Below, piece after piece: positions 18,820-26,124 of a DNA stretch of 26,221 nucleotides. Position 1 is the stretch's first letter. Each line of letters starts with the position of its first letter. The notes under the pieces were generated by a model, which did not search any database, was not told the DNA's origin, and worked only from the letters and a program-made list of their open reading frames with translations. Source of the stretch: a virus; IMG/VR virus record IMGVR_UViG_3300045012_000097, positions 1-26,221 of that record; one strand, 5' to 3'. The position numbers were made by a program, and so were the translations under genes.

Positions 18820-19335
18820 ATGCCTTTTGCATATATCCACTTTGTTGACAGGCAAGGTCGTCCTGTTGACCCTGGTTGGGGGGTTGAAGGCCCGGAGACT
18901 CAACCTCCCGGCATTTGGCCAGGGCCGGGTTATCCAGATCAAGGTCTTCCTGGAGGGGGTCGGCCTCCGCACGTCGGCAATCGCCCTCCGGGATCTTGGT
19001 TTCCAGGTGGTGGTTGGGGCGAAGAGCACCCGGGAAATCGTCCTCCTGGTTCTTGGGGCGGAGGCGGTCACGCTGGTCAACTTCCAGTTTGGCCAGTTGA
19101 GCCAACGCATCCGATCGCGCCTCCGATTCCCGGAGAGCCGAACCCTCCGGTTGATCCGCCTCCGGGCACGATCTGGCCGCCGCTTCCCCCTGGGACGCCT
19201 ACAGGCAAGGCGCTCGCGATGGTTTGGATTCAGGGCGTCGGCTATCGCTACGTTGTGGTTCAAATCGACGTAAGGCCGGATCAAGGATTACCCGATACCG
19301 GCCAACCTCCAGAGGCGCAGCCGAAGCGTCGCTAA
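18820..19335 (+). CDS. Pro/Gly-rich repeat protein with ordered C-terminal segment
   Basis: The 171-residue protein starts after AGAGGAGA. The middle is made of Pro/Gly/Trp-rich units including GNRPPGSW twice (about residues 53-60 and 71-78). The C-terminal ~45 residues (GKALAMVWIQGVGYRYVVVQ) are a conserved-looking beta segment that I have seen at the end of Pro-rich phage proteins. It may be a fibrous virion accessory protein; no enzymatic motif. A terminator hairpin follows. Confidence 0.72.
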   Translation: MPFAYIHFVDRQGRPVDPGWGVEGPETQPPGIWPGPGYPDQGLPGGGRPPHVGNRPPGSWFPGGGWGEEHPGNRPPGSWGGGGHAGQLPVWPVEPTHPIAPPIPGEPNPPVDPPPGTIWPPLPPGTPTGKALAMVWIQGVGYRYVVVQIDVRPDQGLPDTGQPPEAQPKRR

Positions 19336-19343
19336 TAAAAACG

Positions 19344-19366
19344 CCCCTGCGCATAAAGCGCGGGGG
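19344..19366 (+). terminator. Terminator-like hairpin before the PEP-CTERM cassette
   Basis: CCCCTGCGC-ATAAA-GCGCGGGGG (9 bp with one G-U pair), then TTCC, 8 nt after the stop at 19335. It would end the 16712 unit. Confidence 0.6.
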
Positions 19367-19389
19367 TTCCTAGCAGGAACAAGGCAGAC

Positions 19390-19418
19390 TTGACAGCACA
19401 CCCGCGCCGTGTTAAAAT
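19390..19418 (+). promoter_or_regulatory. Sigma70-type promoter of the PEP-CTERM gene
   Basis: TTGACA, a 17 bp spacer, TAAAAT with the extended -10 TGT; one of the closest matches to consensus in the set. It serves only the gene at 19447. Confidence 0.82.
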
Positions 19419-19446
19419 GGCGTGTAAAATTACACAGGAGAGCCAC

Positions 19447-20100
19447 GTGAATAAATGGTTAATGACTACGGCGCTGTTGTTGGCAATGGGAACCGTGCCT
19501 GCTCACGCGACGTTGCAGATCGAAGTGTTCGACAACGGTTCGCTGATCGACAATGTGACGGGAATCACCACGGGCGCGGCTTCGCTCACCGCCAACGATG
19601 CGAACTTCGCCAACATCACGATCAACGCGCAAGGCTCGCCCATCCTACCCAACGCGGACCTATCAAGCGTCACGCTCGACGCAACTGCGGCGGTTGGATT
19701 CACCGGTTCGCACACGTTGACGGTGGACATTCTGCAAAGCGCTATCTTCGGCACCGGAAACACGCTCTCGACTTTCACCGTCAACGGTCTGACCAATGAT
19801 CCTGGGCCGACCACCGAATCCACCTTCGCCGATGGCGGAGTGCTGGCCTCGCACACCTTCCCGGTGGCGCTGCTCGACGGTTCGTTCGGGCCAGTGTCGG
19901 CAGCGACCGGTGCGTTCACCTCTGACGAGACCCAGTTCGCCGTGGATTTCACCGCGCCACGGCAATCATTCGGCGGTTCTATTCAGTTGACCACTGGCGT
20001 TCCGGAACCGTCAACTTGGGCAATGCTGCTTGCAGGGTTCGGGTTAATTGGCGCGTTCGGCCTGTTTCGCAACCGCAGAGCCAACTTTCGCCTGATTTGA
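19447..20100 (+). CDS. Secreted PEP-CTERM protein (moron-like cargo)
   Basis: A 217-residue protein. The GTG at 19447 is chosen because AGGAG lies 5 nt upstream and because it gives a clean signal peptide (KWLMTTALLLAMGTVPAHA, cleavage after AHA). The mature part is Thr/Ser/Gly/Asn-rich and beta-like (TLQIEVFDNGSLIDNVTG; GSHTLTVDIL). The last 33 residues are a PEP-CTERM signal: VPEPSTWAM, a hydrophobic helix (LLAGFGLIGAFGLF) and an Arg cluster (RNRR). In bacteria this is cut by exosortase/EpsH for export to the envelope or matrix. It has its own promoter and is closed by two hairpins. It reads as host-derived cargo. Confidence 0.88.
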   Translation: MNKWLMTTALLLAMGTVPAHATLQIEVFDNGSLIDNVTGITTGAASLTANDANFANITINAQGSPILPNADLSSVTLDATAAVGFTGSHTLTVDILQSAIFGTGNTLSTFTVNGLTNDPGPTTESTFADGGVLASHTFPVALLDGSFGPVSAATGAFTSDETQFAVDFTAPRQSFGGSIQLTTGVPEPSTWAMLLAGFGLIGAFGLFRNRRANFRLI

Positions 20101-20107
20101 CCCGAAC

Positions 20108-20129
20108 GTCGCGAAAGACCGCTCGCGAC
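20108..20129 (+). terminator. Hairpin after the PEP-CTERM gene
   Basis: GTCGCGA (20108-20114) and TCGCGAC (20123-20129) form a 7 bp perfect stem directly upstream of a second, larger hairpin. Confidence 0.45.
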
Positions 20130-20130
20130 G

Positions 20131-20163
20131 GGGCCGAATCCCGAACCCCCTGGGATTCGGCCC
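20131..20163 (+). terminator. Perfect 12 bp hairpin closing the PEP-CTERM cassette
   Basis: GGGCCGAATCCC and GGGATTCGGCCC with a 9 nt loop, then ACATTCTC. It is a strong stem with a weak tract. It separates the cassette from the polymerase promoter 24 nt later. Confidence 0.6.
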
Positions 20164-20187: not shown

Positions 20188-20216
20188 TTGACACGAACTC
20201 GACGGCGTGCTAGACT
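20188..20216 (+). promoter_or_regulatory. Sigma70-type promoter for the polymerase operon
   Basis: TTGACA, a 17 bp spacer, TAGACT with the extended -10 TGC. It drives 20257, 20768, the DNA polymerase and the 23468 gene. Confidence 0.8.
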
Positions 20217-21644: not shown

Positions 21645-21684
21645 GGGTGGGGAGTTGAGGATTGGTTCTCCGGGCTCCCCACCC
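21645..21684 (+). promoter_or_regulatory. Leader hairpin upstream of the DNA polymerase gene
   Basis: GGGTGGGGAG (21645-21654) and CTCCCCACCC (21675-21684) make a 10 bp perfect stem with a 20 nt loop. It ends 8 nt before GGAG (21693-21696), the ribosome site of the polymerase. There is no U-tract. It is placed like a translational operator, as in T4 gene 43 where the polymerase binds its own leader. Confidence 0.6.
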
Positions 21685-21702
21685 ACTCTCTCGGAGATTT
21701 AC

Positions 21703-23475
21703 ATGTTCCAAGGCATCGACCCACAGCGCGCCATAAATATGGTATCGCAATCTACAGTTATTGCGATTGATACAGAAACAACGGGATTAACAGTCCATGA
21801 TCGAGTATGTGGATGGGTGTTTACCGACGACTATGCAAGCATCTACGTACCCACTCGTCACTTGGGTGGAGGCAATATTCTCAATGCGGACGAATTCGAG
21901 AGAGTACTTGCTTTGTCTTTTCGAGATCGATCCAGGCGCGGATTTCGGACCATCGGGCATAGTCTTGGTTTCGACCTTCGCATGGCGGGAAAACACGGAG
22001 TCTTCCCCGAATTCCCCCTGGAAGACACGATGATCAATGAGGCACTTATCAGTGACATTACTAGGGGATACGGACTCGACGACTGTTGCACTCGTCATGG
22101 CGTTACTGCTAAGCTTGGTGATGCTGTTTACCGTGCCATTGCTAGTAGATTTGGTGGAATGCCCGACCGTAAAGCGATGGCTAATTTTCACCGAATGGCA
22201 GGCGATGATCCTGACGTTGTTGATTATGCTACGGGTGATGGGATATCCACTCTAGAGCTGTGGAAAGCTCAGCAAAAGATGCTCGACGATCACGAATTAC
22301 GGGTTCCCTGGAAGTTGGAGTGCCAACTTATTCACAGGGTGGCGCGTCTTCACCGACGCGGAATGAAAGTGGATGGAGAATATGGAGAGCAACTTCGAGG
22401 ACCGACCGGAATTCTTGAGACGAAAATTGCCACGCTTCAATCGGCCTTTCCATATGGTTTTAACACCAACTCGCCAAAAGACGTTGAAGGTTTATACCGT
22501 CGTGCGGGATTCGGGGACGACGACTTCGCTCGCACCGAGAATGGGGCCGTTTCATTTACCGAAGGGTGGTTAAAGAATAACGAGATTGGCGAGCGAATCA
22601 TAGCGATCCGCCAGCTAAAAAAGGCTCGAGATTCGTTTGTTACGCCGCTCGTGGAGACGCATAATGTTAAGGGACGAGTTCATCCTGTACTCAATCAATC
22701 TAAATCTGACGACTACGGTGCGATCGGAGCGCGATTTAGCTGTTCTGAGCCGAATCTTCAAGCGTTCCCAAAACGAAATAAAGAAGTCGGGAAAGTCGTC
22801 CGACGACTCATCATTGCTGATGACGGTTTCGAGATTCAGGAAGGCGACGCCAAGCAGCAAGAGCCCAGATTGTTTGCATATTTCTCAGACGATGAGCGAT
22901 TACTTCAGGGATACCGCACCGGAACTATGGACATCCACGACATCACTTCCGCTGGTCTGGGATTGCACCGAGATATCGCTAAACGAATGGCCATGGGAAT
23001 CCTGACTGGCATGTCAGCTAAGGCACTGTCGGGGCACATGGGTTGGCCGTACCAACGAGCGCTCGATTACCACAACGCATTTTTAAAACAGCAATTCCCC
23101 GCCATCCGCAAATTTCAGAAGGCTGCGATGGGGGTATTTCTATCAAGCGGATATGTTAAGTCAATCACTGGCAGGAAAGCTCGTCTAGACGATAAGGAAT
23201 ACGCTTATCGCGCGGTGAGCCGAATCATTCAGAACTCTGGCGGCGATCTCATGAAAACTACGCTGCTCAGGGCATGCGAATATGAAGAGGCATACCCACA
23301 AGTTCAGCTGCTAATGACAATTCATGATTCGCTGATATGGCAACGCCAAGTCGGATTCAATACCAGCGAATTGGTGCGAGTGTGCGAGGCAGTTCCGAAT
23401 GAGTTCAAACTCGGTCTACCTATTCCTTATGAGGTCGGAACTGGAACAAACTGGGCAGAGGCATCCTATGGCTAG
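21703..23475 (+). CDS. dpoZ: Family A DNA polymerase with 3'-5' exonuclease, DpoZ candidate
   Basis: A 590-residue protein whose ATG follows GGAGATTTAC. The exonuclease has DTETTG (23-28), HSLGFDLR with Asp91, and YATGD (175-179): all catalytic carboxylates present. The polymerase has motif A GDAKQQEPR (Asp382), motif B RDIAKRMAMGILTG (423-436) and motif C IHDS (His541, Asp542). Unlike E. coli Pol I, the motif B Phe and Tyr positions are Met431 and Thr435, and the motif C Glu is Ser543. There is no 5' nuclease domain. In Z-genome phages, family A polymerases with active exonuclease (DpoZ) favour 2-aminoadenine over adenine. The symbol is proposed from PurZ and MazZ co-occurrence, not from a test. 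It overlaps the next gene by 8 nt. Confidence 0.88.
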   Translation: MFQGIDPQRAINMVSQSTVIAIDTETTGLTVHDRVCGWVFTDDYASIYVPTRHLGGGNILNADEFERVLALSFRDRSRRGFRTIGHSLGFDLRMAGKHGVFPEFPLEDTMINEALISDITRGYGLDDCCTRHGVTAKLGDAVYRAIASRFGGMPDRKAMANFHRMAGDDPDVVDYATGDGISTLELWKAQQKMLDDHELRVPWKLECQLIHRVARLHRRGMKVDGEYGEQLRGPTGILETKIATLQSAFPYGFNTNSPKDVEGLYRRAGFGDDDFARTENGAVSFTEGWLKNNEIGERIIAIRQLKKARDSFVTPLVETHNVKGRVHPVLNQSKSDDYGAIGARFSCSEPNLQAFPKRNKEVGKVVRRLIIADDGFEIQEGDAKQQEPRLFAYFSDDERLLQGYRTGTMDIHDITSAGLGLHRDIAKRMAMGILTGMSAKALSGHMGWPYQRALDYHNAFLKQQFPAIRKFQKAAMGVFLSSGYVKSITGRKARLDDKEYAYRAVSRIIQNSGGDLMKTTLLRACEYEEAYPQVQLLMTIHDSLIWQRQVGFNTSELVRVCEAVPNEFKLGLPIPYEVGTGTNWAEASYG

Positions 23476-24569: not shown

Positions 24570-24831
24570 CAGCATCGAAATGAGCGTAAAAGAATTGGTG
24601 GCGCGCAGAGCCTTGACTCATGGTAGTTGGGCCGAAACGGCAAGAGTAGCTCAGAATATTAAGAATGCGATGGGTAGTTCTCCAAATTGGCCGAACTTAG
24701 CAGACAGCCAGAAAGAAGGGCTAGACATGATTGCGCAAAAGATAGCGCGTATCCTGACTGGGAACATGAATGCTGATGAGCATTGGGAAGACATAGCTGG
24801 TTACATCGAGTTGATAAGGCGGGGACTGTGA
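24541..24831 (+). CDS. DUF6378-like phage protein
   Basis: A 96-residue protein. The ATG at 24541 follows GGAG with 9 nt spacing. The sequence RALTHGSWAETARVAQNIK, NWPNLADSQKEGLDMIAQKI, then ILTGN and EHWEDIAGY match the DUF6378 pattern, a helical phage protein common near nucleotide-metabolism genes such as MazG-type hydrolases. The role is unknown; its all-alpha shape and Asp/Glu placement recall NTP-pyrophosphohydrolase folds, but no full motif is seen. Its stop overlaps the PurZ start (GTGA). Confidence 0.75.
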   Translation: MGNNTITSLSSIEMSVKELVARRALTHGSWAETARVAQNIKNAMGSSPNWPNLADSQKEGLDMIAQKIARILTGNMNADEHWEDIAGYIELIRRGL

Positions 24832-25886
24832 GCAGCCTATTCGCGTCGACTGGCCTCCACGTAATGGCGGGAGGTCAATATGGCTCCGAGGGCAAGGGCC
24901 TGCTCGCCGCTTGGCTCGCAGAACGCGCTATCGAGGAGAACATTCCATTCAACGGCGTCATTACAAGCGCGGGGCCGAATAGCGGACACACCAGCTATTT
25001 CGGCGATCGTAAGATTGTGCTGAAACAGCTGCCTACCTTCGCAGTTCACATGAGCTTACGAGGGTGGCACATTCCAGTCTACTTTTCGGCGGGATCGGTG
25101 ATCAATGCCGAAATACTGGTATCGGAACACAACGCATTCCAGGGCATCCCCATCTATATTCACCCATGCGCGACGGTAGTTCTCGAAAAGGATAGGGTGG
25201 CCGAACATGATGCCTCTAGTAGCATATTCGCTGTTGCTGGAACCCGCAGTGGAACCGGTGCGGCTATTGCTCGCAAAGTCCGTCGGGATATTTCCGCTAT
25301 TTATTACAACTATTCTCAGCGCTTGTTTCCCTATTATGAAAGTATTGTTGATCTGGATTATCATCCGTATTTTATGGAGATATCACAAGGATTTTCACTA
25401 GGATTGAACGAGGCCAAATTCTACCCTAACGTAACCAGCCGCGAATGTACGTTCATGCAGGGAATGGCCGATTCCCGCCTCCCGCCAACGTATTATAAAC
25501 GAGGCTATCTGGCGTTCCGAACTTATCCGATCCGAGTCGGGAATTCCGATGGGTTCAGTAGCGGAGATTGGTATCAGGATCAGCAAGAAACCACCTGGGA
25601 TGCGATAGGCGTTCCCGCCGAATATACGACCGTAACTAAGCGGGTGCGCCGTGTCGCCACGTTCAGCTGGAACCAGTTCAAAGATTCGGTGACAGCGAAT
25701 GCGCCGACGCACGTGTTCCTAAACTATATGAACTACCTCCATATCAAAGAGCAGCTAGAGTTCTACGAGAAACACCGACAGGTAAGGAATGTTTCCCTTG
25801 GAGAAAATTACAAGTTTATCTTCGGGCATGGGCCTCGAGTGGAGCAAGTTAACGATCAGGATTCCCCCGGAATTGAGAGCATATGA
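24828..25886 (+). CDS. purZ: PurZ: N6-succino-2-amino-dAMP synthase (PurA homologue)
   Basis: The 352-residue protein joins dGMP and aspartate (using ATP or dATP) to give the precursor of 2-amino-dAMP (dZMP), then processed by host enzymes. It starts at GTG in a GTGA overlap behind AAGGCGGGG. The loop GGQYGSEGKG (15-24) aligns with PurA's GxQWGDEGKG, with the catalytic Asp replaced by Ser20, the hallmark separating PurZ from PurA. Other PurA-family blocks: GPNSGHT, a reshaped IMP-loop equivalent GTRSGTGAA, RTYPIRVG and TTVTKRVRRVATFS. Length fits phage PurZ (about 340-360) and is shorter than bacterial PurA (about 430). MazG-like gene follows directly. The reaction is known for the family and inferred here. 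Confidence 0.9.
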   Translation: MSSLFASTGLHVMAGGQYGSEGKGLLAAWLAERAIEENIPFNGVITSAGPNSGHTSYFGDRKIVLKQLPTFAVHMSLRGWHIPVYFSAGSVINAEILVSEHNAFQGIPIYIHPCATVVLEKDRVAEHDASSSIFAVAGTRSGTGAAIARKVRRDISAIYYNYSQRLFPYYESIVDLDYHPYFMEISQGFSLGLNEAKFYPNVTSRECTFMQGMADSRLPPTYYKRGYLAFRTYPIRVGNSDGFSSGDWYQDQQETTWDAIGVPAEYTTVTKRVRRVATFSWNQFKDSVTANAPTHVFLNYMNYLHIKEQLEFYEKHRQVRNVSLGENYKFIFGHGPRVEQVNDQDSPGIESI

Positions 25887-26124
25887 ACATGACATGCGGC
25901 GCATGTTCGATGCGATGGTATACAAGCTTCGCAAGAATGCCCATAAAGGAAAGTGGGAACACGGGCGCGTCGTCGAATATATGAACCATCTCCGCGAGGA
26001 AGTAGTGGAACTATCCAACGCCATCGAGGAAGGAAAGAATACCGTGGAGATAATCCTCGAAGCTGCCGACGTGGCGAATATGGCGCTAATTCTGTGCGCA
26101 ATGGCGATCGACGGGAGGGACTAA
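25789..26124 (+). CDS. mazZ: MazG-like dNTP pyrophosphohydrolase, MazZ candidate
   Basis: The 111-residue protein has the all-alpha NTP-pyrophosphohydrolase signature: a KxxK-W lead (KNAHKGKWEH), EEVVE at ~71-75 and EAAD at ~92-95, the metal-binding EExxE...ExxD arrangement. In Z-genome phages MazZ turns dGTP (and GTP) to the monophosphate that PurZ uses, so its place straight after PurZ fits. The start is not certain: the ATG at 25789 has CAGG 6 nt upstream and overlaps PurZ by 98 nt; an ATG at 25828 has no clear ribosome site. The stop overlaps the next start (TAATG). Confidence 0.82.
   Translation: MFPLEKITSLSSGMGLEWSKLTIRIPPELRAYEHDMRRMFDAMVYKLRKNAHKGKWEHGRVVEYMNHLREEVVELSNAIEEGKNTVEIILEAADVANMALILCAMAIDGRD

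Follow-up and report, generated by a model that had tools for sequence, protein, structure and literature searches.

The window analysed here is the whole of an IMG/VR record (IMGVR_UViG_3300045012_000097), 26,221 bases long and probably a genome fragment. It encodes an SU10-type portal, a terminase, a primase, a PolA and proteins resembling Pam3 gp33 and gp34, in keeping with the initial annotation of the locus as one carried by a phage. Of the named relatives found, Ochrobactrum phage vB_OspP_OH is the nearest, with 56% identity in PolA and 37% in the portal. Among the replication genes, and under a promoter of its own, lies the gene of a PEP-CTERM protein, the features of which are collected in Table 1. 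The initial annotation let the unit begin at 19390, where the TTG is part of the -35 box; the coding start is the GTG at 19447, behind AGGAG.

Table 1. Features of the PEP-CTERM locus and its immediate neighbours, in window coordinates.
Feature	Position	Strand	Basis or detail
Pro/Gly-rich neighbour protein, unannotated	18820..19335	+	no Pfam or PADLOC match
Hairpin closing the upstream gene	19343..19367	+	10-bp stem; z -3.8 for 19330-19395
Sigma-70 promoter, TTGACA-17-TAAAAT	19390..19418	+	11/12 matches; TG before the -10 box
Ribosome-binding site, AGGAG	19436..19440	+	sequence
PEP-CTERM protein gene, 217 aa	19447..20100	+	GTG start; stop codon 20098-20100
Predicted signal peptide, VNKWLMTTALLLAMGTVPAHA	19447..19509	+	by inspection; cleavage expected after AHA
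Mature (cargo) domain C1, 163 aa	19510..19998	+	predicted 12-strand beta-sandwich
PEPxxWA-CTERM sorting tail: VPEPSTWAM, transmembrane helix, Arg cluster (RNRR)	19999..20100	+	PF07589 and NF035944 above cut-off
Hairpin 1	20107..20130	+	8-bp stem
Hairpin 2	20131..20163	+	13-bp stem
Promoter of the next phage operon, TTGACA-17-TAGACT	20188..20216	+	promoter match

The unit stands between two operons, as had been proposed: a hairpin precedes it and a second promoter follows. Its own promoter and the two hairpins behind the gene, also part of the initial annotation, are present and are kept in the window's closest relatives. By a count of consensus matches, two promoter sites this good occur in 1.5 kb, against 0.4 expected. 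The hairpin pair (20107-20163) has a predicted stability of -40.6 kcal/mol and a z of -5.9, and none of 200 shuffles was equally stable; it lacks the T-run of a textbook intrinsic terminator. The signal peptide that had been noted is likewise recognizable by inspection, with a Lys near the start, a hydrophobic core and A-H-A preceding the mature part, and comparable features are seen in the aligned relatives.

Assignment as a PEP-CTERM protein was confirmed by profile scores above the curated cut-offs. The tail reached 32.2 bits against Pfam PF07589 (cut-off 20.7), 42.2 bits against NCBIfam NF035944, PEPxxWA-CTERM (cut-off 35), and 22.1 bits against TIGR02595 (cut-off 16). The mature domain contains no Cys and no Lys, with Thr at 16.0%, Ser at 9.2% and Asn at 6.1%, so that Thr, Ser and Asn together make up 31%. 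The mature part of PEP-CTERM proteins is poor in Cys and rich in Thr, Ser and Asn (PMC1569441), and the window protein therefore also counts as a member on composition. At the family level the best match was NF038126 (FxDxF family PEP-CTERM protein), over residues 44-204 with an E value of 8e-10; membership was rejected at 39.2 bits, below the curated cut-off of 50. The protein had no match in PHROGs, and none to a known defence family in PADLOC.

Modelled alone, the mature domain (C1) gave an all-beta structure of 12 strands with a pLDDT of 91.1 and a pTM of 0.89, while the full-length model (pLDDT 58) gave no useful structural match. The best structural neighbour of C1 is an Epf adhesin domain, with a Z of 9.2 over 138 residues at 3.6 A, which is only slightly above common beta-sandwich values. 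It is followed by surface glycan-binding protein B (SGBP-B, Z 8.8), Bdellovibrio Bd1399 (Z 8.7) and the carbohydrate-binding modules CBM61 (Z 7.8), CBM16 (7.4) and CBM51 (7.2), with other sandwiches such as rotavirus VP6 and cyanobacterial cyclases also among the neighbours. Foldseek, too, ranked carbohydrate-binding modules and phage tailspikes high, and similar folds occur in phage tail fibres. Overall, carbohydrate-binding and adhesin domains dominate. CBM61, CBM6/35, SGBP-B and Epf resemble C1 in being beta-sandwiches of similar size, but share only 4-12% identity with it in the rows examined. Since Z values of 7 to 8 are what this common fold usually gives, and since similarity of fold is no demonstration of sugar binding, we treat such binding by C1 as a hint and not as a result.

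The initial annotation held that phages rarely carry such proteins, a view that did not survive a scan of IMG/VR with the family alignment. C1 was found in 68 viral loci, a second, unrelated mature domain (C2) in 19, and further types were met as well. Leaving aside three distant members at 55-58%, the C1 proteins are 73-85% identical to that of the window over their full length and 83-96% in the mature domain. Nearly all C1 carriers could be assigned by their flanks to six phage groups, A to F. Comparison of 23 carriers with whole or near-whole contigs indicated that phages of the same group often have 10 to 40 genes in common, while phages of different groups usually share 1 to 5, with about 12 in some pairs. 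The window and contig G006 of group B share the PEP gene and nothing else, at 91% identity; the PEP gene is again the only one in common with contig G003, at 88%. A tyrosine integrase (PF00589) was found in none of 26 phage contigs, several of them fragments, in a test that covered this class of integrase, and a classical prophage moron is for this reason doubtful. The Pro/Gly-rich protein encoded upstream of the PEP gene in the window, with motifs such as PVDPDYGIDEG, HPDQGLPG and PPGTIWPPLPP, recurs in groups A to E, often adjoining the PEP gene.

Such recurrence, together with a median dN of 0.10 against a median dS of 0.87 in the mature domain, indicates that C1 is not a chance feature. 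The low dN points to strong purifying selection on the mature domain. Synonymous sites in the signal peptide and tail are near saturation, and the lower dS of the mature part suggests that phages have exchanged this part among themselves. In a tree of the mature-domain DNA, groups A to F interdigitate, with 13 group changes against a minimum of 5, and well-supported branches force at least two changes in A, at least three in B and at least two in C, all counts that intragenic recombination could inflate. These values bear on the idea that the protein is a decoy, a phage-made substrate that floods the host sorting enzyme and so clears the host's own PEP-CTERM proteins off the surface. A full PEP-CTERM tail on a short protein would suit this role, as would the fact that, of all the parts, only the tail recurs with every cargo type. 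We give the idea scarcely any credence, because a decoy would need neither a mature domain conserved at dN 0.10 against dS 0.87 nor one that is up to 91% identical among unrelated phages.

The position of the gene differs between carriers. In two loci (L014 and L024) it lies between terminase and portal homologues, and in group B it is flanked by a portal-like gene and the major head gene, a setting that makes late expression likely. This placement, and the similar folds of phage tail fibres and tailspikes, would agree with a virion-related protein whose sandwich domain is carried on or with the particle, for example after being picked up at the envelope, and aids attachment to polysaccharide. 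The signal peptide and membrane tail, however, direct the product out of the cytoplasm, where particles assemble; the window gene sits among replication genes under its own promoter; and related phages with all core genes lack the gene, which makes a virion role very unlikely. A further observation on gene placement concerns a 45.5-kb contig (IMGVR_UViG_3300021181_000016) whose two ends (L018 and L289) both fall within the PEP gene and which may be a complete, circularly permuted genome.

Relatives of the mature domain were also looked for in bacteria by homology search, as the initial annotation had advised, and none came to light. C1 was not found in a first scan of about 85,000 species genomes nor among the matches listed in a second; the same protein query did recover the gene in the window record. 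Its profile had no match in 397 Hyphomicrobiales, 385 Alphaproteobacteria and 297 Acidobacteriota genomes (1,079 in total, with no positive control among them), and none in bacterial loci chosen by their matching tails. The domain was found neither in plasmids nor in the named phages of INPHARED. A bacterial origin of the mature domain was accordingly set aside, with no source found across the genome, plasmid and tail-matched-locus searches. C2 had no match in 297 Hyphomicrobiales genomes, and a 29-aa tail query, which is short and of little power, had none in INPHARED.

Tails like that of the window are, by contrast with this mature domain, common in Sphingomonadales, Bradyrhizobium, Phenylobacterium and their relatives. 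The initial annotation would have been refuted had every plausible host lacked an exosortase gene, an outcome that did not arise: one is encoded in 22 of the 27 bacterial genomes selected because their PEP-CTERM tails best match the window's. No exosortase was found in 33 phage records; the enzyme would be the host's. The same result would also fit a plain membrane-anchored periplasmic protein, its tail unprocessed, that acts at the inner membrane without any exosortase, for instance by blocking the DNA entry of a second phage. Variation in the tail agrees with this, since PEA, PES, PET or PEL replaces PEP in some members and some score below the Pfam cut-off. Nearly all members nevertheless retain Pro-Glu, Ser/Thr and Trp at their positions as well as the Arg cluster, and closely matching tails occur in exosortase-bearing bacteria, so that we consider an unprocessed anchor decidedly unlikely. 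One C1 member (L059, 1339-1995) has lost the PEP motif, with VVPGPVVGAG for VPEPSTWAM, and retains the membrane helix and basic end.

The organization of the locus became apparent from relatives of the window, which were gathered via PolA. In the closest of them (L292, L293, L294/L295 and L298; PolA 83-86% identical), the mature domain at the PEP slot is a different one, C3 in L293 and C2 in the others, although a promoter and a signal peptide precede it and a PEP-CTERM-type tail, hairpins and the next promoter follow. Promoters equivalent to that of the window, and similar hairpins, were identified in L292, L293 and L295, and in blastn alignments the flanks of the window and its closest relatives are homologous with a gap across the mature domain. 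The clearest example is a pair of group B phages, L025 (C1) and L353 (C2). Their DNA is 90.6% identical as far as the signal peptide extends, unrelated over the stretch that follows, and 87% identical again from the PEP motif on, while the proteins of the nearest flanking genes are 92-99% identical. Profile comparison gave no alignment of C1 with C2 (probability 0.3%). C2 is not confined to groups A and B but occurs in other phages too. Altogether, the viral PEP-CTERM proteins gathered form three multi-member cargo clusters and eight singletons, one of which (V34) may be a false call, and none of these joined any of 96 bacterial PEP-CTERM proteins from the tail-matched loci. Judged from its sequence, the locus is a frame of expression and address signals around a cargo that can be exchanged. 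That the tail follows the phage lineage was not retained as a general rule: the medians do not separate it from a tail that follows the cargo, and the pattern is clear only in close pairs.

The gene is accessory: the more distant relatives of the window have none at this slot. Ochrobactrum phage OH and most large contigs of the more distant relatives have no PEP-CTERM match, a point on which the initial annotation had advised a check. In L303, L308, L316 and others, the homologues of genes 16777 and 20257 lie close together without a PEP gene. Four more distant relatives (L313, L320, L322 and L343) encode other PEP-CTERM proteins, for which the slot is another one, flanked by PolA and the gene 23756 homologue. 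Two PEP-CTERM genes in one phage were also seen: IMGVR_UViG_3300021475_000019 has two C2 copies about 42 kb apart (L361 and L357), and the contigs of L039 and L040 each have two PEP-CTERM matches about 2 kb apart.

A stretch of 2 kb around the window gene was compared with the other loci by blastn. The block of homology that crosses group boundaries starts at about 19498-19507 in most loci, at the signal-peptide cleavage site, and ends at about 20025-20051, inside the tail. Outside the block, promoters, ribosome-binding regions, signal peptides and hairpins differ across groups. A strong promoter (at least 10 of 12 matches) stands upstream in 9 of the 59 loci checked, namely the window, L050, L051 and L053 in group A, L009 and L058 in group C, and three loci of group F. 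Because only the mature domain and part of the tail are homologous in DNA across groups, the whole cassette, from promoter to hairpins, is rejected as the transfer unit. The self-contained moron of the initial annotation is thus upheld in part: the gene is accessory and has its own promoter and hairpins in the window and its close relatives, but these signals do not travel with it across groups.

The main rival to the reading we prefer is a matrix or aggregation factor, in which the phage protein would change how exopolysaccharide is bound and how cells aggregate, so that infected cells stay close to new hosts or spread is aided. There is a bacterial precedent in a PEP-CTERM protein that governs floc formation and the balance of bound and soluble polysaccharide (PMC9850573), and the composition of the mature domain is that of PEP-CTERM proteins. 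The exchange of cargo between near-identical phages is, however, not obviously expected of a bulk matrix protein, and there is no sequence relation to any of the 96 bacterial PEP-CTERM proteins compared. We consider this explanation unlikely.

What we prefer, tentatively and at a little under an even chance, is a phage-encoded display frame for exchangeable cargo, in which the host exosortase sorts a lectin-like domain that masks or remodels surface glycan during lytic infection. By analogy with the PEP-CTERM pathway (PMC1569441), the protein would be exported by Sec and held in the inner membrane by its tail; the host exosortase would then process the tail and sort the protein to the cell surface or the polysaccharide matrix. 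The least certain steps come last. The lectin-like domain might bind a surface glycan common to the hosts of these phages, and masking or remodelling of that glycan in lytic infection might keep off competing phages or re-adsorbing progeny. Different cargo types would suit different host glycans. A role in contests at the cell surface is favoured because unrelated phages retain one and the same domain and because near-identical phages differ in cargo. Early superinfection exclusion fits group B poorly, given the place of the gene between portal-like and major head genes and the late expression that this makes likely. The altered PEP motifs of some members, the loss of the motif in L059, and tails that across the whole family show no clear preference for lineage over cargo also weigh against the display reading. 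The spread and swapping of the domain suggest a common phage way of altering the host surface. In a broader form, unrelated virulent phages would share a polymorphic surface-display system, in which the signal peptide and PEP-CTERM tail stay fixed, the host supplies the exosortase, and phage-specific binding domains are swapped to control access to surface polysaccharide; we offer this as a possibility that leans towards the doubtful.

Neither PEP-CTERM proteins nor phage-encoded envelope proteins are new as kinds. Like the bacterial PEP-CTERM/exosortase proteins, the phage protein has a signal peptide, a PEP motif, a transmembrane helix and a basic end, and a Thr/Ser/Asn-rich, Cys-free mature part with little homology beyond the tail (Haft et al. 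2006, PMC1569441). Unlike them, it is encoded by phages in which no exosortase was found, has one mature domain over six phage groups and no bacterial relative found, and occupies a fixed slot at which different cargo can stand. Phage morons and superinfection-exclusion genes, such as lom and bor of lambda and llp of T5, resemble it as accessory genes between core genes with a predicted exported product aimed at the host envelope and, in the window lineage, with their own expression signals. The PEP-CTERM protein differs from them in being neither a lipoprotein nor an outer-membrane barrel and in its proposed use of a host sorting route; its carriers have no tyrosine integrase match, and the exchanged unit is a domain and not a gene with its promoter. 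Polymorphic systems combine a fixed trafficking part with variable cargo, and the phage locus likewise joins a constant address part to unrelated, interchangeable domains at one locus. Here, unlike in those systems, trafficking depends on a predicted signal peptide and a PEP-CTERM tail as the constant parts, the cargo resembles a binding domain and not a toxin, and no immunity partner was recognized.

In the open-access literature (subscription papers being outside the scope) we found no report of phage-encoded PEP-CTERM proteins or of such a family with exchangeable cargo. To our knowledge, the exosortase route has so far been described only in bacteria and archaea. If the display reading is true, phages use this route to dress the surface of cells about to be lysed, and no earlier case of a phage employing the exosortase pathway would be known. 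The PEP gene is the only gene that the available sequence of the window has in common with one unrelated phage, so that its product should be of importance to phages as a guild. What the domain does could be tested cleanly on the near-isogenic C1/C2 pairs.

The window also contains genes reminiscent of modified-base synthesis. Its PolA (21655-23475, + strand) resembles the aminoadenine polymerase DpoZ at 250 bits (cut-off 500), and an adenylosuccinate synthetase (24783-25886, + strand) resembles PurZ at 198 bits (cut-off 300). The synthetase has the motif GSEGKG at the position where PurA carries GDEGKG. A weak pyrophosphohydrolase match follows at 25789-26124 (+ strand), and Ochrobactrum phage OH is annotated with a comparable set. 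The window phage may carry 2-aminoadenine DNA.
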